64,000 bases of DNA from Geomonas azotofigens (GTDB lineage: Bacteria; Desulfobacterota; Desulfuromonadia; Geobacterales; Geobacteraceae). The stretch is taken from the NCBI RefSeq assembly GCF_018919395.1, contig NZ_JAHLME010000001.1, positions 496,001 to 560,000 on the forward strand. The letters run 5' to 3'. Below are positions 41,042-52,611 of the stretch, in pieces. The notes below the pieces were generated by a model. The model saw only the letters and a program-made list of their open reading frames with translations. It was not told the origin of the DNA and searched no databases. A program made the position numbers and the translations under genes. Each line of letters starts with the position of its first letter. Position 1 is the stretch's first letter.

Positions 41042-41081
41042 AGCCCCGCCGGGCCCGGTACCCGGCGGGGCTGCTTTTTTT
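41042..41081 (+). terminator. terminator after MCP gene
   Basis: AGCCCCGCCGGG (41042-41053) and CCCGGCGGGGCT (41061-41072) form a perfect 12-bp stem, followed by GC and seven T. It separates the MCP gene from the convergent cytochrome gene. Confidence 0.93.
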
Positions 41082-41892
41082 ACAGCCCCTGGCGGCCCGC
41101 CAGAATGTTCACCAGTTTTGTCAGCTCTCCTTCCGGCAGGCGTATCGGTCGCATCTGGGTCCGTTCACGACTTTGCCTCGGGTTTTCCAGCCATTTTTTC
41201 AGTGCCCCTTCGCTCCAGCGCGTGCGCCCTGCGGCGGTCTTGGGGTAGAACTCCGACAGAAGGCCCGACAGGTTCGGGCCGATGGCACCGCGCCCCACCC
41301 CCCCCACGGCGCGGGTCAACGCTCGGTGGCAGTCGCCGCAGCGTTTCTCGAAGACGTTGTCCCGCTCGGATTTCCCATCCTGAAAATGCACCACCTGGGG
41401 CGACTCGTCCTTGCCTCGTCTCCTCTTGGCCTCGGCCTCCCGCACCCCCGCCAGCACCGCATTCACCAGGTCCGTTTTCTGCCGCTCGTCGAAGTGAAAC
41501 TGGGGCATCAACAGCGCCGGGTTGCCGATCGCCTCAAAGATCCGCTGCGCGGTGGTCCCCGCCGGGAGCCGGTCCAGGTCCGCGGCGAGCCGGTTCCCCT
41601 TTCCCCCCACGATGTGGCAGCGCCGGCAGGCGAACTGCTCCACGAGGTCGCGCCCGCGCCGCGTGGGAGCTGAGCCGGGCACGGCGAACCAGGCGAAGCG
41701 TCCCGGCACCAGGTCGTGGTGGGCGATGCGCGGCCGGTCCGAGCGAGGGTCCCCGCCGTGGCAGGTGACGCAGCTTCCCACAGAGCGATAGTGCGCGGGG
41801 TGGCACTCGAGGCAGGACGGTGTCACCCCGTGGGCGGCCACCGGGGCCACCAGGAGCGCCAGGGCGATCAGAAGTGGGGTACGAACTGCCAA
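41080..41892 (-). CDS. tetraheme c-type cytochrome of the ext cluster
   Basis: About 270 residues, exported, with four CxxCH motifs: CLECH and CVTCH near the N-terminus, then CRRCH and CGDCH. The last two parts resemble monoheme cytochrome c domains with distal Met (LMPQFHF; RTQMRPIRLPEGE). No ATG or GTG fits the signal peptide; a TTG at 41892 with AGAGG six bases upstream gives MAVRTPLLIALALLVAPVAAHG, so I use it. It overlaps the cytochrome b gene end by 25 bases. Last in the unit, it is the likely electron acceptor of the Rieske/cytochrome b pair. It may be the protein named ExtS in Geobacter, but I am not sure. Confidence 0.8.
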   Translation of the reverse strand: MAVRTPLLIALALLVAPVAAHGVTPSCLECHPAHYRSVGSCVTCHGGDPRSDRPRIAHHDLVPGRFAWFAVPGSAPTRRGRDLVEQFACRRCHIVGGKGNRLAADLDRLPAGTTAQRIFEAIGNPALLMPQFHFDERQKTDLVNAVLAGVREAEAKRRRGKDESPQVVHFQDGKSERDNVFEKRCGDCHRALTRAVGGVGRGAIGPNLSGLLSEFYPKTAAGRTRWSEGALKKWLENPRQSRERTQMRPIRLPEGELTKLVNILAGRQGL

Positions 41893-42284
41893 TTGGCACC
41901 TCTGCAGAACAGGGCAACGAGGGTCAGCGCGAGCACCAAAACGGAAGCGGCGAGCGCCGCGCCGTTGACGGCCCGGCACTCGCGGGGGAGCCAGCGGGCG
42001 GAGTCCGGGGGCGTGGTGCGGGAAAGCCAGGGAAGGGCAAGGAAACAGGCCGCCAGCGCCAGCACCAGGTAGATGAGGTACTTCGAGTAGCTGACCAGCT
42101 CCTGGATCCAGAGCAGGAACCAGGCGGACTTGACCGGGTTGGGGACGCGGGCGAGATTCGCCTGTTCCTGCAGCGGGGCCGGGACCAGCGCGGCAAGGGC
42201 CATGAGGGCCAGCACCGTGAGGGCCAGCGCGGCCTTGATGAGCCGGAAGAAGTGCGGCGAACTCTTTACGTAGCCTCGTTTCAT
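41868..42284 (-). CDS. extQ: cytochrome b C-terminal half (subunit IV-like)
   Basis: This 138-residue membrane protein has three hydrophobic helices. It corresponds to the C-terminal part of a cytochrome bc1/b6f cytochrome b, as in subunit IV. The quinol-site region reads VPAPLQEQANLARVPNPVKSAW, close to the usual pattern before helix F, then WFLLWIQELVSY. The ATG at 42284 overlaps the stop of the N-terminal half as ATGA, so both halves are made together. The name ExtQ follows my memory of the Geobacter selenite/tellurite operon nomenclature. Confidence 0.75.
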   Translation of the reverse strand: MKRGYVKSSPHFFRLIKAALALTVLALMALAALVPAPLQEQANLARVPNPVKSAWFLLWIQELVSYSKYLIYLVLALAACFLALPWLSRTTPPDSARWLPRECRAVNGAALAASVLVLALTLVALFCRGANWQFVPHF

Positions 42285-42916
42285 AGGTAGGGGAGCACCC
42301 CCTTGTTCTTCCTGATCCGGTAAAAGTGGAGCCCGCTCAGAAAGAGGAGCGCTCCCGGGATCATCAGGATGTGCAGCACGTAGAAGCGCAGCAGGCAGGC
42401 GGGCTCGCCCACCCCGTCCGGCACCAGTGCGGCGCGCAGCGCCCCGCCCAGCGGCATGATGTGCAGCAGCTCCATGCCGGTCTGGGTGGCCCAGAGGGCG
42501 AGCTGGTCCATGGGGAGGAGATAGCCGGTGTACCCCTCGAAAACCGCCAGGAAGAAGAGGGCGCAACCGACCAGCCAATTCAGCTGCCGGGGCTTTTGGT
42601 AGGCGCCGGTCAGGATGACGCGCAGGGTGTGCAGGACGATCAGCACCAGCAAGAAGTGGCTCGCGAGCCGGTGCAGGCTTCTCAGGTAGCGCCCTCCCCA
42701 GACCGAGGACTCCAGGAGGAGGATCGACGGGTAGGCCGCGGCCGGGCTCGGTTGGTAGTAGAAAAGGAGCAGCAGCCCCGAGGCGGCCAAAAGGAGCAGG
42801 CAGGTGAAGGCCAGCCCTCCCAGACAGAGGGTGTAGGAGAGGGTGAGGTTTTTTTGCAGCACCGCCCTCGGAAAGAGATGTTTGAGGAATTCCTCGATCA
42901 AATCAGTTGCTCCCAC
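42281..42916 (-). CDS. extP: cytochrome b N-terminal half (b6-like)
   Basis: This 211-residue membrane protein has four to five helices and carries the two b hemes. The paired histidines are visible: RSLHRLASHFLLVLIVLHTLR for helix B, and FYVLHILMIP plus LSGLHFYR for helix D. GYTGYLLPMDQLALWATQ matches the Qo-side block. With the Rieske protein and subunit IV-like gene it should form a quinol-oxidising core, passing electrons to the adjoining c-type cytochromes. The start is GTG at 42916. The symbol is from memory of the ext nomenclature. Confidence 0.82.
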   Translation of the reverse strand: MGATDLIEEFLKHLFPRAVLQKNLTLSYTLCLGGLAFTCLLLLAASGLLLLFYYQPSPAAAYPSILLLESSVWGGRYLRSLHRLASHFLLVLIVLHTLRVILTGAYQKPRQLNWLVGCALFFLAVFEGYTGYLLPMDQLALWATQTGMELLHIMPLGGALRAALVPDGVGEPACLLRFYVLHILMIPGALLFLSGLHFYRIRKNKGVLPYL

Positions 42917-42945: not shown

Positions 42946-43010
42946 CTCCCGATTGATTCCCCCTCCCTTCGCTGGGGGGACCACGGGCGCATGATTATTC
43001 GCCCCTACAG
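42946..43010. repeat. short repeat-like insert between Rieske and cytochrome b genes
   Basis: On the minus strand the sequence reads TAGGGGCGAATAATCATGCG followed by a C/G-rich part ending GGGAGGGGGAATCAATCG. It has inverted GGGCG/CGCCC arms. TAGGGGCGAATAATnATnCG is a motif I have seen as a dispersed intergenic element. Here its first three bases are the stop codon of the Rieske gene. Confidence 0.45.
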
Positions 43011-43397
43011 TTGGACGTGATAGTTCTCTCCCACCAGCTGCACTTCGTACCGCGCCAGCGCCCGGTCGGCGGGCCCCTTCAGCACCTTTCCCTCGCGGTC
43101 GAACTCGGAGCCGTGGCAGGGACAGACCAGCCCGGAGGGGGTGACGTTGACCGTGCAGCCGAGATGCGTGCAGACGAGATCCAGGGCATAGACCCGCCCG
43201 CCCCGATCCAGGAGCGCGATGCGCGCCTCGCCGTAGACCAGGGCACCGTCGCGCGGGAGATCCCCCTTGGCCACGGTGAGTAGCGTCTTCCTACGCTTCC
43301 CCCTCGGGGTCAGGAACTTCCCCAGGAACCATCCTCCCGCCGCTAGCGCGATCAGCGAGCCGAGGAAGGTTCGACGTGATTGACCAAGCTCTGCCAT
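43005..43397 (-). CDS. extO: Rieske [2Fe-2S] protein
   Basis: This 130-residue protein starts with a twin-arginine signal anchor (SRRTFLGSLIALAAGGWF). The Rieske cluster ligands follow as CTHLGC (about residues 81-86) and CPCHGSEFD (about 97-105), with the usual GP loop (KGPADRAL). It takes the first electron from quinol and passes it to cytochrome c. The gene overlaps the upstream decaheme cytochrome gene by 46 bases and is followed by the split cytochrome b. The symbol is from memory of the ext nomenclature. Confidence 0.88.
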   Translation of the reverse strand: MAELGQSRRTFLGSLIALAAGGWFLGKFLTPRGKRRKTLLTVAKGDLPRDGALVYGEARIALLDRGGRVYALDLVCTHLGCTVNVTPSGLVCPCHGSEFDREGKVLKGPADRALARYEVQLVGENYHVQL

Positions 43398-44599
43398 TTT
43401 TCCAGGTACGCCCTCCGATAGGCCGTGCTTTTTCGATTGAGTTCCAGGTAGCGTCGCTCCGGGTAGAAGGTGCCGTTACTGACCTGCTGGCCGGTCGCGT
43501 CCCAGAACGAGGAAAGCGTCATCCCCTCGGCCTGCAGCTGGTAGATGCGCTCCTCCTTGGGCTCCCTCAGGAAACGGCGCGGGTTGTCGTGGCACCCCTC
43601 GCACATCACCGTGCCCCGGCGCACCGTGTGGGGGAAGAACGCCTTCCAGCGCGCCGCCAGGAGTAGGTTTTCGTCCCAGACCGCCCGGTCGTTCCTGACG
43701 TCGGTGAAGTAGGCGATGAACTCCGGTCTGATCGGGCTCACCTTGCCCCGCCCGTTCAACCCCAGCGGCGGCGCGTCCTGGCGCCGCAGGTAGGCGCTTT
43801 TTAGGTACTCCTCCGAGCCCTGGTCCCGCCGCAACCCGTAAAGCTCCTGCGAGGGGCTGTTGCTGAAGCGCAGGAAAAAGGTGCCGTACTCCTGGGCGGC
43901 CCAGGCGGAGTGGCAGGCCCAGCATTCCATCTTCTCCAGGTGCGCCGCGATGCGGTGCTCCGGCACGCTTTGCTTGGGCTCATGGCAGTCCCGGCACCCC
44001 TTGGCCGCCTTGCGCCCTGCGGCGAGGCTCGCCATGGAGTGGCAATCGCCGCAGGTAAGGCCCGCCTCCGCGTGCAGGTCCGGGGTCATCTTCAGGTACG
44101 CCTCGCCGTAGGCCACCTCGCCGCGCTGGTAGCGCATGCTGTCCTCGCGCGGCGCCATGCCGTAGTAGTCGGTGCCGACGAAATACCCTTTATGGCAGGC
44201 GAAGCAGTCGCGATCACGGGGCTTGCCGATGTCGTGCCCCTTGGCGGCATGACAGTCGGTGCACCCCTTCAAGTGGCACGCGCCGCAGTTCTTGGCGAAA
44301 AAGCCCCGGTCCGCCCGGCCGTAACTTGCCGCGACAAAGTCGAGCTCGCCCCGCCGGCTCCCCATGGCCTGGGCGAAGAGTGCCGCGTACCCCTTGTGGC
44401 AGCCGACACAGCCGGCGGCGCCGCTCTCCCGGGAGGCGGGGTTGGCCAGGGTCCTGGTCTCGTCCAGGTGACAGGAGAGGCAAGGGATCCCCCGGTGCAC
44501 CCCCTTGACCACCTTCTTGTGGCAGACGGTGCAGTTCTCCCCGGCCAGCGCGAGCGCCGCGCTAAGGAGCAGGAATAAGGCGACGATGCAGCGCATCAT
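43352..44599 (-). CDS. decaheme c-type cytochrome
   Basis: About 415 residues, with a signal peptide (MMRCIVALFLLLSAALALA) and ten CxxCH motifs: CTVCH, CLSCH, CVGCH, CGACH, CTDCH, CFACH, CGDCH, CRDCH, CWACH and CEGCH. Nine lie in the first 250 residues, and the tenth follows a 100-residue heme-free stretch. It is periplasmic. Starts at 44599, 44596 or GTG 44608 are possible; all overlap the upstream gene by about 35-47 bases, suggesting coupling. It likely carries electrons between the Rieske/b complex and the outer-membrane conduit. It may be one of ExtM/ExtN; I do not assign which. Confidence 0.86.
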   Translation of the reverse strand: MMRCIVALFLLLSAALALAGENCTVCHKKVVKGVHRGIPCLSCHLDETRTLANPASRESGAAGCVGCHKGYAALFAQAMGSRRGELDFVAASYGRADRGFFAKNCGACHLKGCTDCHAAKGHDIGKPRDRDCFACHKGYFVGTDYYGMAPREDSMRYQRGEVAYGEAYLKMTPDLHAEAGLTCGDCHSMASLAAGRKAAKGCRDCHEPKQSVPEHRIAAHLEKMECWACHSAWAAQEYGTFFLRFSNSPSQELYGLRRDQGSEEYLKSAYLRRQDAPPLGLNGRGKVSPIRPEFIAYFTDVRNDRAVWDENLLLAARWKAFFPHTVRRGTVMCEGCHDNPRRFLREPKEERIYQLQAEGMTLSSFWDATGQQVSNGTFYPERRYLELNRKSTAYRRAYLEKWQSLVNHVEPSSAR

Positions 44600-46412
44600 T
44601 GAGCGCACGATGGTCCAGCTCCTTTCGATAAATGGGGTCGGCCGCCTTGTCGTGGCAGACCAGGCAGAGGTTCACGGCCAGGGCGCGCCGCACCTCAGCG
44701 GCGTCGAGGGGACGGGAATGCTCCCGGGTGATGGCCGAGTACGCCCGCACCTTCCCCTCCTGCAGGGTCAGGAAGCCGTCCAGCGGCTTGTCCGCCGACT
44801 GCTCGCAGATCATGGTCCCCTCGATGTTCCTGCCCGAGACCACGTGCTGCCCGAAACCGAGGAAGGCGGGGTTGCCGTGGCACTCGCCGCAGCCGATCGC
44901 CTTTTTGCCGGTGTTGTGTGAATAAAAGGGGGCGAAGCGGAGTTGCTGTTTCCCCCTGAAGCGCGCCACGTACTCGTTTTTGGAGAGGCTCCCGTCCGGC
45001 TCCACCACGCTCACGAAGGTCTGGCACCCGGGCGTGACCGTGGAGATCCTGCCGCGCTGGTTCAGGGCCAGCGGGAAGGGGTAGAGCATGCGGTAATCCT
45101 CCTTCTCGCTGAAGCGCCCCGGCGTCGGCACCCCCTTCACGTAGTCCATGGCGGACCGGGTCTTGTCGTAGCTCGTGTGACAGCCGTAGCACTGGACCAC
45201 GGTGCGGCTGTGGCAGGAGTAGCATTCCATCCGGCCGTGGCCGACCACGGTGTGCTCAGCCGTGCCGGTGATGACCCGGCTCTTGAAGAGCCTGCCGCTG
45301 CGCTTTCCCAAGACCCAGACCGCGCCGTCCTTGTAGAAGACGTTGGAGTAGGCGCGCCCCTTGGCGGTCAGGATCATCTTCATCCCCTGCCGCATCTGCA
45401 TCCGGTACCCCTGGGACTCCCGGAGTGCCTCGTCGCTTTCACTGGCGATCTCACGGTAGCGCGGCGGCTTGGCGCCGCCGTGGCAGTCCTCGCAGGCGAT
45501 CTCGGTCTGCAGGTACATGTTGCGATAGGAGTAACCGTCCCCCATCAGGTCGCGGGAGGTGTGGCAGTCGATGCAATCCATTCCGGCCGCGAAGTGCACG
45601 TCCGGCGCGATGCGGGTCAGGTTCCTGTTGCCGCTGGCAAGCTGCCGTCCCGGAAGCCCGAAGCGGGTCGGCACCAGCGAGTTGTTGCCGTCGTTAAGTC
45701 CCTGGTAGGAATAGGCGATGCGCCCGCTTCTGTTGTGGCAACGGGCGCAGACCTCGTTGCCGGGAAGCCGCTCCATGGCGTGGCTCGCCGCGTAAGGGCC
45801 CCGCCCCCGCACGGTGGCGTCCCCCCCCCGGTAGGTGGCGCGTTCGTCGTAGGGGAAATGGCAGGCGGCGCACCCCGAGGCGTGGCTCGCCCCGTAGACC
45901 TCACCGCTCTCCCGGGCCACGTGGCACTGGGAGCAGAACTTACGGTACAGCTCCCCGGAAACGTGGTCGAGTTCCTCCACCGGCTTGAGCCGCAGCGGCT
46001 TGCCGGCGGGATCGTAGACCTCCCCGGCGCGGCTGGCGTACTCCCCCTCTTCCGGGCCTTCCCAGGTGAGCCGGATGTTGCGGATCATCCCGGCCGTCGT
46101 GTACATCAGGTTCGACTTGACCCGGTCCAGCTGGTATTGGTGACAGGAGCCGCAGCTCTTGTCCCAGTGCTCCGGCGCGGAGGGATTGCCGCGCCCCAGC
46201 ATGCCGCGGTGGGCAATTTCCTTCCCGGTAGCCCTGGCATCACCGCCGTGGCAGGCGACGCAGTCGCGGTGCGTCGCCGAGGCGTGCTCGATGCCGGCGT
46301 GGCAGGTGAGGCAGTTGTTGGCCGGTGCCCCCTTGGCAATGCACCCGGCAGCGAAAAGGGCAGCCAGCAGAGCGGCTTTGCGGGTAACACGGGACCAGCC
46401 TGATGGCGCCAC
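44562..46412 (-). CDS. dodecaheme c-type cytochrome lipoprotein
   Basis: Twelve CxxCH motifs are visible: CLTCH, CVACH, CGSCH, CSQCH, CAACH, CARCH, CIDCH, CEDCH, CYSCH, CYGCH, CGECH and CLVCH. From GTG 46412 the protein has about 616 residues. Its start WSRVTRKAALLAALFAAGC is a lipoprotein signal with lipobox AAGC, so the mature protein should be lipid-anchored in the periplasm or outer membrane. An upstream frame to 46568 exists, but it is read from a GC-rich repeat and would bury the signal, and the promoter at 46575-46603 would start RNA at about 46568. It is first in the second ext unit. It may be ExtM or ExtS; naming is uncertain. Confidence 0.82.
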   Translation of the reverse strand: MAPSGWSRVTRKAALLAALFAAGCIAKGAPANNCLTCHAGIEHASATHRDCVACHGGDARATGKEIAHRGMLGRGNPSAPEHWDKSCGSCHQYQLDRVKSNLMYTTAGMIRNIRLTWEGPEEGEYASRAGEVYDPAGKPLRLKPVEELDHVSGELYRKFCSQCHVARESGEVYGASHASGCAACHFPYDERATYRGGDATVRGRGPYAASHAMERLPGNEVCARCHNRSGRIAYSYQGLNDGNNSLVPTRFGLPGRQLASGNRNLTRIAPDVHFAAGMDCIDCHTSRDLMGDGYSYRNMYLQTEIACEDCHGGAKPPRYREIASESDEALRESQGYRMQMRQGMKMILTAKGRAYSNVFYKDGAVWVLGKRSGRLFKSRVITGTAEHTVVGHGRMECYSCHSRTVVQCYGCHTSYDKTRSAMDYVKGVPTPGRFSEKEDYRMLYPFPLALNQRGRISTVTPGCQTFVSVVEPDGSLSKNEYVARFRGKQQLRFAPFYSHNTGKKAIGCGECHGNPAFLGFGQHVVSGRNIEGTMICEQSADKPLDGFLTLQEGKVRAYSAITREHSRPLDAAEVRRALAVNLCLVCHDKAADPIYRKELDHRALNDALHRRLIPAP

Positions 46413-46424
46413 GCTCCCCGCCCC

Positions 46425-46512
46425 CGGAGGGGGAGGGCCAGGGAGGGGGAAATCCATCTTGCCCGCATCCTGCGTCCCCCCTCCCGACCTCCCCCCTCCG
46501 AGGGGAGGAACT
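46425..46512. repeat. GC-rich hairpin repeat in 5' leader
   Basis: Two G/C-run hairpins (CCCCCGGAGGGGG at 46422-46434 and CCCCCTCCGAGGGG at 46491-46504) lie between the promoter and the likely start of the 12-heme gene. Similar elements are typical of Geobacter intergenic DNA. When translated they give Pro/Gly-rich nonsense, which argues against an upstream start codon. Confidence 0.5.
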
Positions 46513-46574
46513 GGGTATGTTTCTCGGTCTGTAACCTTCATATCGCCCGCTAACTTTGCACTGAACACCCGCGC

Positions 46575-46684: not shown

Positions 46685-48037
46685 CTACTTACCGCTCTGA
46701 CTGATGCTCACCCTCTTGGTGAACTCCTTCCAGACGAAAGGATCGCTGTTGGGGGTGCCGAAGGGGAGATAGGTCAGCTTCACTTCCACGTCGAGGTCGT
46801 ACGCTGCGGGCTTCTCGACGGTCTTGCCGTTCACTTCCACCTCTTCGAGGGGATAGAAGATTTCGAAGCGCTCCTTCACCAGCTTGCCCGGGGGAAGCCC
46901 GGTGTCCTCGATCAGGCCGCTCTTCTCGTAGGGGCCGCGCCCCATCCGGTCGCCCCTGGCCAGCTGTTGCGGGACCGGCATGTAGATCTTCTCCTGGTTG
47001 AACACTTCCTTGCCGTCTTTGGTCTTACCGATTACCGACAGAACCAGTCGGTTAGGGGTCGGTCAGCCGTCGGGGATGGAATGCCCCGCCTTGTTCAGCA
47101 TCTCGACCTTGACCACGGCCCGGGGCCTGATCTTGGCGCCGTCGCGCCAGTAGTACCCGAACGCTTCGGCCTTGAACTCGACCGCCTTGTCGCTCATGGC
47201 CGCATCACGGTACGACTGGATGTTGTGGCCAAGCTTGGAGTTTTTCATGTGGCAGTCCTGGCAGTTCTCCTGCCCCACCTCCGCCTTGTAGGTCCAGAGG
47301 TAGCTGCCGTACGAGGTGCAGCACTGGGTCGGCTCGTCGAGCTCCAGGTTCGGCCCCAATCCGTGGCACTGGCCGCACTGGATGGCCTGGTCCATGATCG
47401 GGCTCTTGGCCATCTTGGGGAACTTGTCCGAGGGATGGTCGCCGTCCTTGGAACCGTATACCACCCCCGCCTTGGGATAGCCGTCCTGCCACTTGTGGGT
47501 GATCGCGTTCCGGTTATGACAGACCAGGCAGTTGATGGAGACGCTTTTCAGCTTCTCCTCGAGCTTTTTGGCCCCCTCCTTGTCCTTCTTGGCCCGGGCC
47601 TCCTTCCACCCGTAGAGGGTGCTGACCAGCTCCTGGGCCACCGAGTCCTCGGCGTCGGCCAACTGCGGCAGGTGGCACTTCGCGCACCCCATCAGGTGCT
47701 CGACCTTGACGTCCTTGGGGCTTTTCACCCCCGAATAGGGCTCCTCCATCAGGCCGTTCTCGATGGTGGTCATGATGGTCATCGCCGTGCGCGCCGTCCC
47801 GAAGAGGGAGCGCGAGTGGATCGATTTGGAGGCCTGGTCATGCTGCTCCTGGTGGCATTCCACGCAGGAGCTCGAGTCGTACATCTTGGCCAGTTCGGCG
47901 AGCGTCTTTGCCTTTCCCGACTTGGCCGCGATGGTCTCCTGCCAGCCGATACCGGCCTTTCCCGCGAAAGAGGGTGCCGTCAGCACCCCCAAAACAAGGG
48001 CGGCGGCAAGGCCACCCCGCAGAATCATTGTGTTCAT
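46685..48037 (-). CDS. extKL: pentaheme c-type selenocytochrome ExtKL, read through TGA at 47065
   Basis: ATG 48037 starts a signal peptide (LRGGLAAALVLGVLTAPSFA) and a protein with five hemes: CVECH, CAKCH, CLVCH, CGQCH and CQDCH. At codon 325 the frame meets TGA (47065-47063) and continues unbroken to TAG at 46685, for 450 residues in total. The TGA lies in a conserved-looking block, KAGHSIPDG-[TGA]-PTPNRLVLSV, and the downstream part lacks its own ribosome binding site. A hairpin with a GGTT loop starts 11-12 bases after the TGA. I therefore read it as selenocysteine. As I recall, the Geobacter genes once called extK and extL are this same split reading. It is periplasmic or secreted, last before the internal terminator. 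The role is electron transfer to extracellular or selenium/tellurium acceptors. Confidence 0.88.
47034..47052 (-). promoter_or_regulatory. candidate bacterial SECIS hairpin (extKL)
   Basis: On the minus strand ACCGAC and GTCGGT form a 6-bp stem around TGGTTCT. Counting from the base after TGA, the CCGAC stem starts at +12 and GGT is at +18 to +20, the same positions as in the AhpD-like gene at 5588-5603. Confidence 0.75.
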
Positions 48038-48102: not shown

Positions 48103-48423
48103 TTAGCAACCCTGCAGTTCGTCCCCTTCGCACTCCGTGATCGACACCGGGGCGTCCACTTTCATCTTCTCCGCCTTGGCCTTGCCGAACTTCAGGGTCA
48201 CCTCGTTCCCCTGCACGGCGAGCACCTTGGGTGAGCCGCCGGCGGCCGAGACCATGGCGCCTTTTTTCACGAACGCCGGGGGAGCCCCTTCCAGGGTCAC
48301 CGTGACCTGCTCGCCATCCACCTTGGTTACCTTTCCCTTGGCCGGTCCAGCCGCGAAGGCAATCGCCGCCAGGCTCATTATCGCCAGGGTCGTCGCCGCT
48401 ATCCGTATCGCTTTAGCTAACAT
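48103..48423 (-). CDS. extJ: small periplasmic protein ExtJ
   Basis: This 106-residue protein has a clear signal peptide (IRIAATTLAIMSLAAIAFAA) and a mature part of about 80 residues that looks like a small beta-barrel (KVTKVDGEQVTVTLEG, VLAVQGNEVTLKFG). Two cysteines lie at the very C-terminus (ITECEGDELQGC). It lies between extI and extKL, the position of extJ in Geobacter. The function is unknown; the C-terminal Cys pair might bind metal or a thiol partner. AGGAGG lies six bases before the ATG. Confidence 0.75.
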   Translation of the reverse strand: MLAKAIRIAATTLAIMSLAAIAFAAGPAKGKVTKVDGEQVTVTLEGAPPAFVKKGAMVSAAGGSPKVLAVQGNEVTLKFGKAKAEKMKVDAPVSITECEGDELQGC

Positions 48424-48490: not shown

Positions 48491-49696
48491 TTAGAAGATT
48501 ACCTGGAGCTGCGTCACGTAGGTCATGAAGTCCTCGGTCCCGTCGGCCGTGGTGCCGCTGCCGTTACGGAAGCCGGTGGAATTGGCCTCGAAGGTGAGCT
48601 TCAGGTTCTGGTCACGCAGGTAGTAGTTCATGCCGCCGCCGGTCCAGAATATGCGCTGGTTGTAGATGCCGTTCAGGTTGGCGAACTTCCAGTTCTCATG
48701 GCGCACGAAAAGCTGCAGCGGGATGTTGGGGAGCATGTAGCCGGCCTTGACGTAGTAGCCGTTCTTCTCCCCGTTAATGCCGACCACGTTAAGGTCGGGA
48801 TTGTCACCCAGGTAGGCGTGGTCGAGGTCGATCTTCTCGTAGGCGCCGGAAGCGGTGAAGGTCCCCAGCCCGTCAACCGGGTACTCAACGAAGCCGTCGA
48901 AGGTCCACGCCTTGTAGTCCTTCTTGTCGGTCTTCAAGACGGTGTTGCCGTAGGCGACGTCCGGCTCGAACTGGTACGCGGCCCCGAAGGTAGCGACCTT
49001 CTTCTTGCCGAGGTAGGTACCCTTGTAGCCGTAGTCGTTTTCGGGGTCGAGCAGGGTCACGTGGGCGCGCGCCGAGTAGCGGAAATTCGAGGCCGGTGCG
49101 GTTTCGCCGGAGACCGCCTTGCGTCCTTCCATGGCGTCCAGCCGGTACTGGAACATGTCGTTGAAGAGGTTACCCCATACCGCGACGCCGGTGTCGCGCG
49201 TGGTCACGTAGGGGGCGCGGATGAAGAGCGAGCGGTCCAGGGTGAGGGGAGCCTCGCAGGCTTCCAGGTTCTCGCGGGAGAGGTTGTACTTGAACTTGCC
49301 CACGTTCACCCGGAAGGCGTTGTCGATCTTGAAGCGGACCACCGCGTCCAGGAGCTGGAAGTTGGACCCCTGGTTCTCTCTGGCCACGTCAAGCGGGGTC
49401 AGGTTGGGGTCATCGGTGTACTCGGTCTGCACGTAGATCGACATCATGTCGCCGTACTTGCCCATGAGGGCCAGGCGGTTACGGCGGAAGTTGAAGTTCA
49501 TCGTGGTGTCTTCGTTGTTGTCTCCGGAGCCGATGTCCCTAAAGGTCATCTGGAACTGCCCCTTGTAGTCCAGTTGCAGCGCCCCCTCGTCGTTGGGGCC
49601 GAAGGTCATCCTGGGACCGGCAAAGGCGGTGCCGGCCATAAGCACAATTCCCAGCGTCATCCCGGCGACCGTCGATATCTTAGGCATTTTCAGCAT
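48491..49696 (-). CDS. extI: outer membrane porin ExtI
   Basis: This 401-residue protein has a signal peptide (GMTLGIVLMAGTAFA) and alternating amphipathic beta strands throughout (LQLDYKGQFQMTFRDIG, FRRNRLALMGKYGDMMSIYVQ, FRVNVGKFKYNLSREN). It ends with an aromatic residue (LQVIF) as required for barrel insertion. It matches the porin of the selenite/tellurite reduction operon. In Geobacter, ExtI has been linked to selenite uptake and acts with ExtH. AGGAG precedes the ATG at 49696. It forms the barrel part of the conduit with the ExtKL cytochrome. Confidence 0.85.
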   Translation of the reverse strand: MLKMPKISTVAGMTLGIVLMAGTAFAGPRMTFGPNDEGALQLDYKGQFQMTFRDIGSGDNNEDTTMNFNFRRNRLALMGKYGDMMSIYVQTEYTDDPNLTPLDVARENQGSNFQLLDAVVRFKIDNAFRVNVGKFKYNLSRENLEACEAPLTLDRSLFIRAPYVTTRDTGVAVWGNLFNDMFQYRLDAMEGRKAVSGETAPASNFRYSARAHVTLLDPENDYGYKGTYLGKKKVATFGAAYQFEPDVAYGNTVLKTDKKDYKAWTFDGFVEYPVDGLGTFTASGAYEKIDLDHAYLGDNPDLNVVGINGEKNGYYVKAGYMLPNIPLQLFVRHENWKFANLNGIYNQRIFWTGGGMNYYLRDQNLKLTFEANSTGFRNGSGTTADGTEDFMTYVTQLQVIF

Positions 49697-49754: not shown

Positions 49755-51173
49755 CTAGCAGCCGCCACCGCCGCTGCCGGAACCGCCCGAAGACGGGGCG
49801 CTCACGGTGCTGCGATAGGCCCGGTCCGCGGTCTCGATCTGGTTTCCTTCCGCGAAGCTCGGCTCGACCGTGTACACCCGTGCGCCGTAGTCTACGATGA
49901 TGCGCTGGGTCGTTCCAGTGTGGAAACGGCTCACGTTCCAGGTCAGGTTGTCCATCAACGCGGTGGTGTCCCAGATCGAGCCAACCGCCAGCTTGCCGCC
50001 CGCCGGAACGGTGGCGCCTGCGGTATTGACCGCGGTGTGATCCGAAGAGGCGAGGAGGTTCCATTGGCCGTAGGAGCCGTCATACCACTTCACTTCCACG
50101 TTCGGGTCGTTGTAGTAGGCGATGCCGTCAAGGGCGAAGAAGCCTACCGATGCATAGTTGCCGGCCCGGCAGAAGGAGATGAAGGTCCTGGTTGCGTCGC
50201 GGCCTGCCGCGCCAAGGGTGGCCACGCCGTCGGTACCCAATGCCGCTGCGAGATCCGCTTTTATGGTGGCGGCATCCTTGAAATTCAGCGTCCCCGCCGG
50301 TGAGACCATCGCCGGAGCGCCATAGGAATATGATCCCTTGATGGCGCCGTCAAACGGTGTGTAGGCGTTGCCGCTCACAAGGAGGTCGGTGGTTGACGAG
50401 ACGGTGGCCAGCGGGTTGGTGGCGCCGCGCACGGTGTCGACCAGGGTGACCTTGCCGGCATTGCCCGCGACGATGCCCTGGACATAGGCGATCATTTCCG
50501 GGAGGGAAACGCGCATGTCCGTGTTGACCCTGGTGGTGCCGTTCTGAGCCACGCCGAAGCTCGATCTGGCGACGGTGGGAACAACCTTGGTCAGCGGGTA
50601 ACCAGCAGCGACCCATCCCGCGTTACCCCCCTGCAGAACCTTGAGCCGGTTCTTGGGGAACCCCCAGTAGCGGAACGTCGTGTAGGCGCGGGCCACGTTG
50701 ACCGTGTTGGTTGCGTTGTTGGTGAAGACGACGGTGGTGTTGCCATCGATGCCGGCAGTCTGGATCAGGGTGTCCATCGCGGCCCCGGTCAAGACCATGC
50801 TGCCGGTGACGTTGAAGGGTCCCTCGGCACGGGTATTGTCCATGAAGGCCGCGGATCCCGCTGAAAGGAGTTGGGCTCCTGGGATGTGCCCAACGGTGTT
50901 GTATTTATTGGATGTGTCAGAGTCGTTGTTGGAGACATCGAGAATTACAACCCGGTCATATCCCCCCTGCTTGTTCACCAGGCCGGCATCGACCCACCCC
51001 TTCAAGTCGGCCGCGGTGATCAGCGCGGTAGCGGTCTTGGTCGTAACTGCCTTCTCTGCGGGAGTGTCATAACTGGTGCCCCCGCACCCCCAGATGCTGA
51101 GCGCCGCGACGGCCATCAGACCGAGCAGCGAGAACAGCAATACCCTGCTCTTTTGCATCATCTTTTCCGACAT
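49755..51173 (-). CDS. extH: rhodanese-like lipoprotein ExtH
   Basis: This 472-residue protein has a lipoprotein signal ending LSIWGC (Cys about residue 30). It contains two rhodanese domains, about 50-200 (VILDVSNNDSDT, GHIPGAQLLSAG) and 220-400 (TLVDTVRGATNP). The active-loop Cys is missing from the first (VVFTNNATNT) but present in the second as FISFCRAGNYASVGF. The C-terminus is a Gly/Ser-rich tail ending in Cys (SGSGGGGC). AGGAGG lies five bases before the ATG. Rhodaneses carry sulfane sulfur or selenium on the Cys, which suits a selenite operon. It is first in the unit, divergent from the LysR gene. Confidence 0.86.
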   Translation of the reverse strand: MSEKMMQKSRVLLFSLLGLMAVAALSIWGCGGTSYDTPAEKAVTTKTATALITAADLKGWVDAGLVNKQGGYDRVVILDVSNNDSDTSNKYNTVGHIPGAQLLSAGSAAFMDNTRAEGPFNVTGSMVLTGAAMDTLIQTAGIDGNTTVVFTNNATNTVNVARAYTTFRYWGFPKNRLKVLQGGNAGWVAAGYPLTKVVPTVARSSFGVAQNGTTRVNTDMRVSLPEMIAYVQGIVAGNAGKVTLVDTVRGATNPLATVSSTTDLLVSGNAYTPFDGAIKGSYSYGAPAMVSPAGTLNFKDAATIKADLAAALGTDGVATLGAAGRDATRTFISFCRAGNYASVGFFALDGIAYYNDPNVEVKWYDGSYGQWNLLASSDHTAVNTAGATVPAGGKLAVGSIWDTTALMDNLTWNVSRFHTGTTQRIIVDYGARVYTVEPSFAEGNQIETADRAYRSTVSAPSSGGSGSGGGGC

Positions 51174-51687: not shown

Positions 51688-52611
51688 ATGGATTTCACCA
51701 ATCTGAAAACCCTTGTAGTCTCGGTTGAATGCGGCAGCTTTTCCAAGGCTGCGGAGATCCTCTGCGTCACCCAGTCCGCCGTCTCCCGCAGGATCAAGCT
51801 CCTGGAGGACCACTACGGCCAGCTCCTTTTGGACCGTTCCGGGCTCGCGCTGAAGCCCACCGCCGCGGGGCATCTGCTCGTCGCGAAGGCGCGACAGGTG
51901 CTGAAGGTGGAACAGGAATTCCTCAACGACCTGCAGGCACTGGCGCGCAAACGGAAGATTTCCTTCTGTTGCACCGCCCCTTTCGGCATCTCCTATCTCC
52001 CCGACATCTTCACGCGCTTCATGTCCCGCAACTCCGAAAGCAGCGAACTGAGCTTCGTTTTCGACATGCCCGAAGGGGCGCTCAAGGGGCTGAAGGAAAA
52101 GCTGTACGACCTGATTCTCATCGAATTCTGCGAGGACCTGAACCTTGACGAATTCGCCGTCTACCCGCTGCCGGACGACGAGATGGTCTTCGTGAGCGGG
52201 CCCGGCTTCGGTATCGATGCCAAGGTGGTAGATGTTGAGACCATGCTTGGGCAACGCCTGTACTGCAAGAAATCTGGCTGCTGCGCCCGTCGCTTCCTGG
52301 AAAAGAGCATGCACGGCATCGGCCGGGACGCGGCGGAGTTCCGCAACACCGTCTTCTTCGACGACATACCCTTCATCATCAAGGCGGTCCAGGCGGGAGA
52401 AGGGGTCACCTTCATCTCCCGCAGCCTGGTGGCAGCGCACCTGGCCGACGGTGCGCTGCTCAGCCACCACGTCGAGGGGTTCGCACCGGCCAGGCCGCGG
52501 CGGCTGGTCCTGGAGAAGAACCGGAGCCTCGATCCGACCCTGTTCGACCTGATCGAGGGAATCTTCCAGAGGTTCTCGCTCACCCCGCCCCCTGAGTTGG
52601 CACCACGCTGA
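51688..52611 (+). CDS. LysR family transcriptional regulator of the ext cluster
   Basis: This 307-residue protein has the LysR N-terminal winged helix-turn-helix (NLKTLVVSVECGSFSKAA, TQSAVSRRIKLLEDHYG, about residues 4-45) and a periplasmic-binding-protein-like effector domain (about 90-295). It is divergent from extH, with two matching palindromes between them, so it probably controls itself and the ext genes. The effector domain is unusually rich in cysteine: Cys94-Cys95, Cys148, Cys193, and Cys198-Cys199 in LYCKKSGCCARRFL. OxyR, a LysR protein, senses peroxide through cysteines in this region; sensing selenium, tellurium or redox state here is inference. Confidence 0.88.
   Translation: MDFTNLKTLVVSVECGSFSKAAEILCVTQSAVSRRIKLLEDHYGQLLLDRSGLALKPTAAGHLLVAKARQVLKVEQEFLNDLQALARKRKISFCCTAPFGISYLPDIFTRFMSRNSESSELSFVFDMPEGALKGLKEKLYDLILIEFCEDLNLDEFAVYPLPDDEMVFVSGPGFGIDAKVVDVETMLGQRLYCKKSGCCARRFLEKSMHGIGRDAAEFRNTVFFDDIPFIIKAVQAGEGVTFISRSLVAAHLADGALLSHHVEGFAPARPRRLVLEKNRSLDPTLFDLIEGIFQRFSLTPPPELAPR

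Follow-up and report, generated by a model that had tools for sequence, protein, structure and literature searches.

The closest described relative of the gene studied here is ExtKL of G. sulfurreducens (GSU2937-2936), a five-heme protein and putative selenoprotein which, according to the cited passages of a 2018 paper (PMC5877670, repeated in PMC6148476), was found in silico by earlier work. It belongs to a cluster with the order H-I-J-KL-M-N-O-P, in which cells lacking extI are impaired in reducing selenite and tellurite; the same authors put ExtKL forward as a candidate for reducing selenite (PMC5877670). Deletion of extHIJKL was reported to bring Fe(III) citrate reduction down to 66%, and a strain with extHIJKL as its sole cluster of this kind still partly reduced Fe(III) and Mn(IV) oxides, so that PMC6148476, in the passages cited, points to metals as well as chalcogens for the ext cluster. 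A homologue is also reported to be strongly expressed in sulfate reducers growing in syntrophy (PMC10553843). A general redox role for ExtKL is supported by the PMC5877670 passages and by the placing of related pentaheme cytochromes among potentially catalytic ones (PMC11976967). ExtKL is also listed with its NCBIfam accession in a 2026 review (PMC13188914).

Structures have been deposited too. PDB entries 9wt8, 9wt9, 9wta, 9wtb, and 9wtc, named "Multiheme cytochrome c selenoprotein (MccSep)", carry a non-standard residue at position 325, and a U325A mutant is among them; no paper on these structures was found among the listings of the open-access literature. An earlier note on this DNA had held the chemistry of the selenocysteine to be undescribed, which is not entirely so, given the deposited MccSep and U325A structures. 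Its statement that extK and extL had been merged into ExtKL was right, as the passages of PMC5877670 and PMC6148476 indicate.

The ext operon of Geomonas azotofigens

The window, i.e., the whole stretch of 64,000 nt that was analysed, contains the neighbours known from the extHIJKLMNOPQS cluster of G. sulfurreducens (PMC5877670, PMC6148476), in the same order from H to P:

51688..52611, plus strand: LysR-family regulator, divergent, upstream of the ext operon (Pfam LysR_substrate, HTH_1)
49755..51173, minus strand: extH, rhodanese-like protein (Pfam Rhodanese, 8.8e-7)
48491..49696, minus strand: extI, outer-membrane porin (Pfam Porin_O_P, 1.9e-10)
48103..48423, minus strand: extJ, small protein (position and size as in G. 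sulfurreducens, PMC5877670)
46685..48037, minus strand: extKL, pentaheme c-type cytochrome with predicted selenocysteine, 450 aa, read through TGA
44562..46568, minus strand: extM, multiheme cytochrome (Pfam Cytochrom_c3_2, 1.6e-10)
43352..44608, minus strand: extN, multiheme cytochrome (Pfam Cytochrom_c3_2, 4.3e-11)
43005..43397, minus strand: extO, Rieske Fe-S protein (Pfam Rieske, 4.6e-13)
42281..42916, minus strand: extP, cytochrome b (Pfam Cytochrom_B_N_2, 5e-34)
41080..41979, minus strand: extS-like c-type cytochrome (Pfam Cytochrome_CBB3, 2.5e-12)

The context of an ext operon was found in full, with rhodanese, porin, cytochromes, Rieske protein, and cytochrome b, while the small protein was recognised by position alone, extJ having no Pfam match. 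The true start of extM probably lies further in than that of the longest listed open reading frame (44562..46568). A divergent LysR regulator has been described for most extHIJKL clusters (PMC6148476).

The NCBIfam model NF040886.1, "multiheme c-type cytochrome (seleno)protein ExtKL", matched the whole of extKL with an E-value of 1.3e-175 (584.1 bits, profile positions 13-422 of 423), which passes the curated cut-off of 250 bits, and it also matched the two halves separately (3.2e-128 upstream of the TGA and 6.9e-36 downstream). Residues 11-450 were matched by PDB 9wt9 and 9wt8 (E 2.8e-233 and 4.9e-233), whose chain, which we infer to come from G. sulfurreducens, is equally long (450) and has its non-standard residue exactly where the selenocysteine is predicted here, at 325. 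Among named proteins, its nearest relatives come from Geomonas species, with 97-98% identity over the best segment. Judged by these profile matches and by its neighbours, this is the extKL gene, whose product is an ortholog of the known selenoprotein ExtKL of G. sulfurreducens, from a family that has already been named.

The TGA codon in extKL and its relatives

The minus strand from 48037 to 46685 forms a single frame of 450 codons followed by a TAG stop, which has a TGA at 47065-47063 (residue 325) as its sole interruption. The sites discussed below are the following:

47852..47866, minus strand: heme I, C58VECH62 (sequence, conserved columns)
47672..47686, minus strand: heme II, C118AKCH122 (sequence, conserved columns)
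47516..47530, minus strand: heme III, C170LVCH174 (sequence, conserved columns)
47363..47377, minus strand: heme IV, C221GQCH225 (sequence, conserved columns)
47321..47323, minus strand: Cys239, proposed partner of Sec325 (Cys in 110/110 family rows)
47249..47263, minus strand: heme V, C259QDCH263 (sequence, conserved columns)
47081..47083, minus strand: His319 of GHSIPDG-U, candidate distal heme ligand (His in 110/110 rows)
47063..47065, minus strand: TGA codon, predicted selenocysteine 325 (TGA in 107/114 relatives)

The start of the protein resembles a signal peptide, as judged by eye. All five CXXCH heme sites precede the TGA, and the 125 residues 3' of it contain neither His nor Cys. GHSIPDG closes the upstream part and PTPNRLVL opens the downstream part, with the TGA between them, and third-position GC is 0.90 ahead of the TGA versus 0.84 after it. 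The single frame broken by this TGA alone, the like codon composition on its two sides, and the motif-like block around it, all claimed in the earlier note, are borne out. Between homologues, the differences by codon position are alike on both sides of the TGA, and the divergence after it is no greater than before it.

After the removal of duplicates from 137 fetched relatives, 114 distinct ones reach the site, with TGA in 107, Cys in four, and Ile, Val, and Glu in one each, the Glu-bearing one being a distant paralogue; this count is blind to TAA and TAG at the site, because frames were split at those codons. Rows over the family cut-off were counted by hand in two surveys. Among 277 genomes of the class, 68 of 70 rows had one TGA and the two without it end before the site; one row (G048) has a TAG 39 codons past the site in addition to its TGA. 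A draw of 395 genomes from the larger group, i.e., the phylum, gave 50 rows (one joined fragment excluded, and at most four candidates scored per genome, so that forms may be missed), of which 43 have the TGA, six are stop-free, including one that ends before the site, and one has a TAA 229 codons before the site. No over-cut-off row of either set thus carries an ordinary TAA or TAG stop at the site itself. A pseudogene or a sequencing error was ruled out because the TGA is conserved across the class and the phylum.

The exchange of selenocysteine for Cys was followed on a tree of 110 of the 114 relatives (those of 330 aa or more that score at least 100), which was built by a quick method and has L153 and L154b as long branches. 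The Cys label requires three changes on this tree, and well-supported branches force three. With the root drawn at the midpoint, the direction of exchange is likely from Sec to Cys. All four genomes with Cys copies also have TGA copies. We also fetched 20 distant paralogues without TGA, a sample chosen among the higher-ranking rows below the cut-off in the class survey (one, L123, is cut by a contig end and shows two hemes), in which the residue after GH[SKH][IVM]P[TS][GD] is Thr, Ser, Val, or Glu, never Cys.

Several relatives are of note in their own right. L154 (G302:C12:96118-98740) is a tandem ExtKL-like pair, in which one member has Ile for Sec (GHSLPDSISSNHR) and the other has Cys (GHPIPDGCPTTTR), and the same genome additionally has a Sec copy, L134; a relative, L155 in genome G472, has Val at the site. 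A second ExtKL copy in genome G178 (L032 / L100, G178:C19:5346-6490) is split over two frames, apparently by a frameshift, and the genome has an intact copy on a different contig. Six genomes (G027, G034, G035, G036, G186, and G261) possess two full-length TGA-containing extKL genes apiece.

SECIS hairpins and selenocysteine machinery

A hairpin with a GGU loop at SECIS distance had been proposed in the earlier note, and it was found with the loop UGGUUCU, which begins 16 nt past the TGA:

47052-47034, minus strand: predicted SECIS hairpin ACCGAC-[UGGUUCU]-GUCGGU (6 bp, 7-nt loop, spacing 16 nt, -8.1 kcal/mol)

According to the bacterial SECIS model given in PMC13188914, the loop has 3-9 nt, the stem 4-16 bp, and the spacing 16-37 nt, with a G within the first two loop positions and an energy of at most -7.5; the hairpin here, referred to as type A, agrees with the model on each of these points, its loop starting with UG. 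The folding energy of the 57-nt stretch is ordinary (z -1.30), with 21 of 200 shuffles folding equally well, and a demonstration of the hairpin by energy alone was therefore dropped. Rfam gave no match at the gathering threshold over the 64,000-nt window, and at a relaxed threshold over 301 bases only two sub-gathering matches, on the opposite strand.

Codon conservation does exceed chance. In all 60 distinct homologues of the core set, residues 330-334 (Arg330-Leu-Val-Leu-Ser334) are encoded as CGA CTG GTT CTG TCG, with zero synonymous entropy. In the rest of the gene, 61 conserved columns that are at least fourfold degenerate have a median synonymous entropy of 1.56 bits, the lowest value being 0.53, and the eight columns of this kind at residues 326-334 fall below them (Mann-Whitney p 6e-6). 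The type-A hairpin is formed by these frozen codons; both of its stem strands are identical in 62/62 homologues, and for this reason it gives no covariation.

In 44 other genes a second hairpin, type B, was identified (GGUGGUCC-[UGGAN]-G-(U)-GACCGCC), with the loop starting 22 nt past the TGA instead of 16. Among its 40 distinct sequences, both sides vary in five of the eight pairs, and the covariation score was reached by none of 500 shuffles (the number of cells with a both-side change by one of 500), a test that leans in the hairpin's favour because the structure was taken from single-sequence folds of the same sequences before being counted. The outermost pair is unpaired in 17/40, and RNAalifold returned no structure for the 44 type-B rows. 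At least seven of the eight pairs form in 38 of the 44 type-B rows, versus 8/880 other codons sampled in the same genes; they also form in 11/62 type-A rows, so the types are not wholly exclusive. Type A belongs to the main clade of the class of Geomonas azotofigens and type B to the other genes, while the loop starts with UGG in 62/62 type-A and 37/44 type-B rows. Within this one family, the SECIS hairpin thus seems to have shifted by two codons with its loop start kept.

Members of the type-B group include a divergent clade inside the class (L094, L095, and L096), in which GHRxPDG-U-LWS replaces the PTPNR form, and L171 (G310:C287), a very distant relative (126 bits) that retains the TGA in HRVPDS-U-PW.

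No TGA-free member of the family (six, of which four have Cys, one Ile, and one Val) forms all six type-A pairs or seven of eight type-B pairs, the Val copy being nearest with five of six type-A pairs. Hairpin typing and the trial of the SECIS rule were run on 106 of the 107 TGA rows. Taken by itself, the rule is permissive: ungapped hairpins with any negative energy were found at 45% of other codons sampled in these genes versus 74% of the 106 TGA sites, and one of -8 or better at 3.7% of the other sampled codons versus 59% of the TGA sites. With bulges disallowed, 28/106 TGA sites have no ungapped hairpin.

The genome possesses the machinery for selenocysteine, including tRNA-Sec (selC; 74.9 bits, cut-off 47), selA (606.7 bits), selB (393.6 bits), and selD (358.2 bits), all above their cut-offs. 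The selD gene for selenophosphate synthetase (L014, C18:49370-50287 of the same genome) itself has one in-frame TGA, and for that reason its product is probably a selenoprotein as well.

With TGA in 107 and Cys in four of 114 relatives, a predicted SECIS hairpin, the selenocysteine machinery, and both halves in one equivalog family, the central claim of the earlier note, one selenocytochrome, holds up well. The TGA at 47065-47063 is almost certainly a selenocysteine codon, and we consider it highly probable that this extKL ortholog is read through at residue 325 via SECIS to give one exported 450-residue protein, with a five-heme domain and a C-terminal beta domain.

Possible chemistry of Sec325 and comparison with known systems

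The predicted Sec325 would be located in the loop GHSIPDG-U-PTPNR. The family has eleven conserved cysteines, ten of heme sites plus Cys239, which lies between hemes IV and V and is the only conserved non-heme cysteine; none of the 20 fetched paralogues has a non-heme Cys in the segment joining the last two hemes ahead of the motif. His319, six residues ahead of Sec325, is retained in the GHxxP[TS][GD] motif of the 20 paralogues and is a possible distal heme ligand. An AlphaFold model (48 rows) had a pLDDT of 70.9, with residues 216-254 and 324-327 mostly below 50, and a Foldseek search of the PDB returned no cytochrome among the 50 matches listed.

We propose that Sec325 may act as a redox-active selenol that lies against the heme domain, in the vicinity of His319, and that it would pair with the invariant Cys239 as a Se-S bond close to a heme. 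Electrons from the ExtP/ExtO pair (cytochrome b and Rieske protein) and from the ExtM and ExtN cytochromes would pass the hemes and open this bond, and the freed selenolate could then reduce a putative periplasmic substrate, an oxyanion or sulfur species, which the ExtI porin would admit or the ExtH rhodanese would act on. In its favour stand the contrast in Cys239 (110/110 family rows versus 0/20 paralogues), the model-based placing of related pentaheme cytochromes among potentially catalytic ones (PMC11976967), and the findings on extI given above. This heme-fed Se-S chemistry is offered tentatively as a whole. The same holds for its more specific form, a Se-S switch between the beta domain and heme IV/V whose selenol reduces extracytoplasmic chalcogen oxyanions, with the SECIS shifted by two codons, which we regard as conceivable but short of probable. 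The Sec325-Cys239 pair is weakened by the Ile and Val copies, which have neither Sec nor Cys and retain Cys239, so that Cys239 failed as a covarying partner inside the family, by the contrast with the paralogues, which counts for roughly a single evolutionary split, and by the AlphaFold model, which is poor in the loops of both residues.

Alternatively, Sec325 might serve as a heme axial ligand or as a catalytic selenolate over an open heme, with no bond to Cys239. Cys, which is a known heme ligand, occupies the site in four of 114 relatives, and Sec lies just six residues past the invariant His319. Related pentaheme cytochromes have moreover been described, from models, as a potentially catalytic class with at least one pentacoordinate heme (PMC11976967). 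However, such a role would leave Cys239 an unexplained invariant cysteine, and the 20 paralogues keep the His motif and then have Thr, Ser, Val, or Glu, so that the fold needs no ligand there. We consider this role for Sec325 conceivable but, again, short of probable.

It is far less probable that the selenocysteine serves as a selenium sensor, such that low selenium would cause a stop at 325 and yield a truncated five-heme ExtK with altered operon function, the chemistry of the residue being secondary. As all five heme sites are upstream of the TGA, a truncated ExtK could still carry electrons, but a sensor would not need the Cys that replaces Sec in four relatives by three changes on the tree, and the part after the TGA is no more divergent between homologues than the part before it.

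That the TGA is an ordinary stop, with ExtK ending there and ExtL translated as a separate gene from the in-frame GTG at 47005 or the in-frame ATG 28 codons past the TGA, is almost certainly wrong, for although that ATG has AGGAG 9 nt before it and the G. sulfurreducens gene has two locus numbers (PMC5877670, PMC6148476), Cys occurs at the site, TAA and TAG do not among the over-cut-off rows, one family model matches both halves, a Shine-Dalgarno-like motif precedes an internal start in only 22/107 TGA homologues, the synonymous sites right after the TGA are frozen, and codon-position differences are alike on its two sides. The remark in the earlier note that the downstream half has no start of its own was inexact, but the internal starts are mostly not conserved in the homologues compared, and either would delete at least one strand of the C-terminal domain as modelled, so the one-gene conclusion stands.

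Gene callers that treat TGA as a stop split ExtKL, and consequently the C-terminal domain and the predicted active residue can drop from annotations. If the Sec325-Cys239 pair is true, then in the periplasm of metal-reducing bacteria a heme chain would be coupled directly to the chemistry of a selenol; the MccSep structures already deposited make the pair immediately testable.

Among more distant systems, pentaheme cytochrome c552 of Thermochromatium tepidum (PDB 5ze8) distantly matches the ExtKL family profile with an E-value of 4e-7, over a best stretch of only 37 residues, and is not known to contain selenocysteine. Like ExtKL, the small pentaheme cytochromes (sPHC) of cable bacteria and lPHC of the Gsu2801 type combine a pentaheme domain with a C-terminal immunoglobulin-like domain, and a two-gene structure has been reported for one sPHC (PMC11976967, 2025). 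That structure probably reflects the same TGA as in extKL, while the main text of PMC11976967 has no word starting with "seleno". The GSU2204-type CXXCH beta-barrel, UshA-like, and octaheme tetrathionate reductase selenoproteins are predicted selenocysteine proteins tabulated beside ExtKL (PMC13188914), but their family models differ from that of ExtKL. From ExtKL of G. sulfurreducens, the present protein differs by sequence divergence only, and to what the cited passages say of that protein our analysis adds the exchange of Sec and Cys, the two SECIS positions, and the proposal for Cys239.
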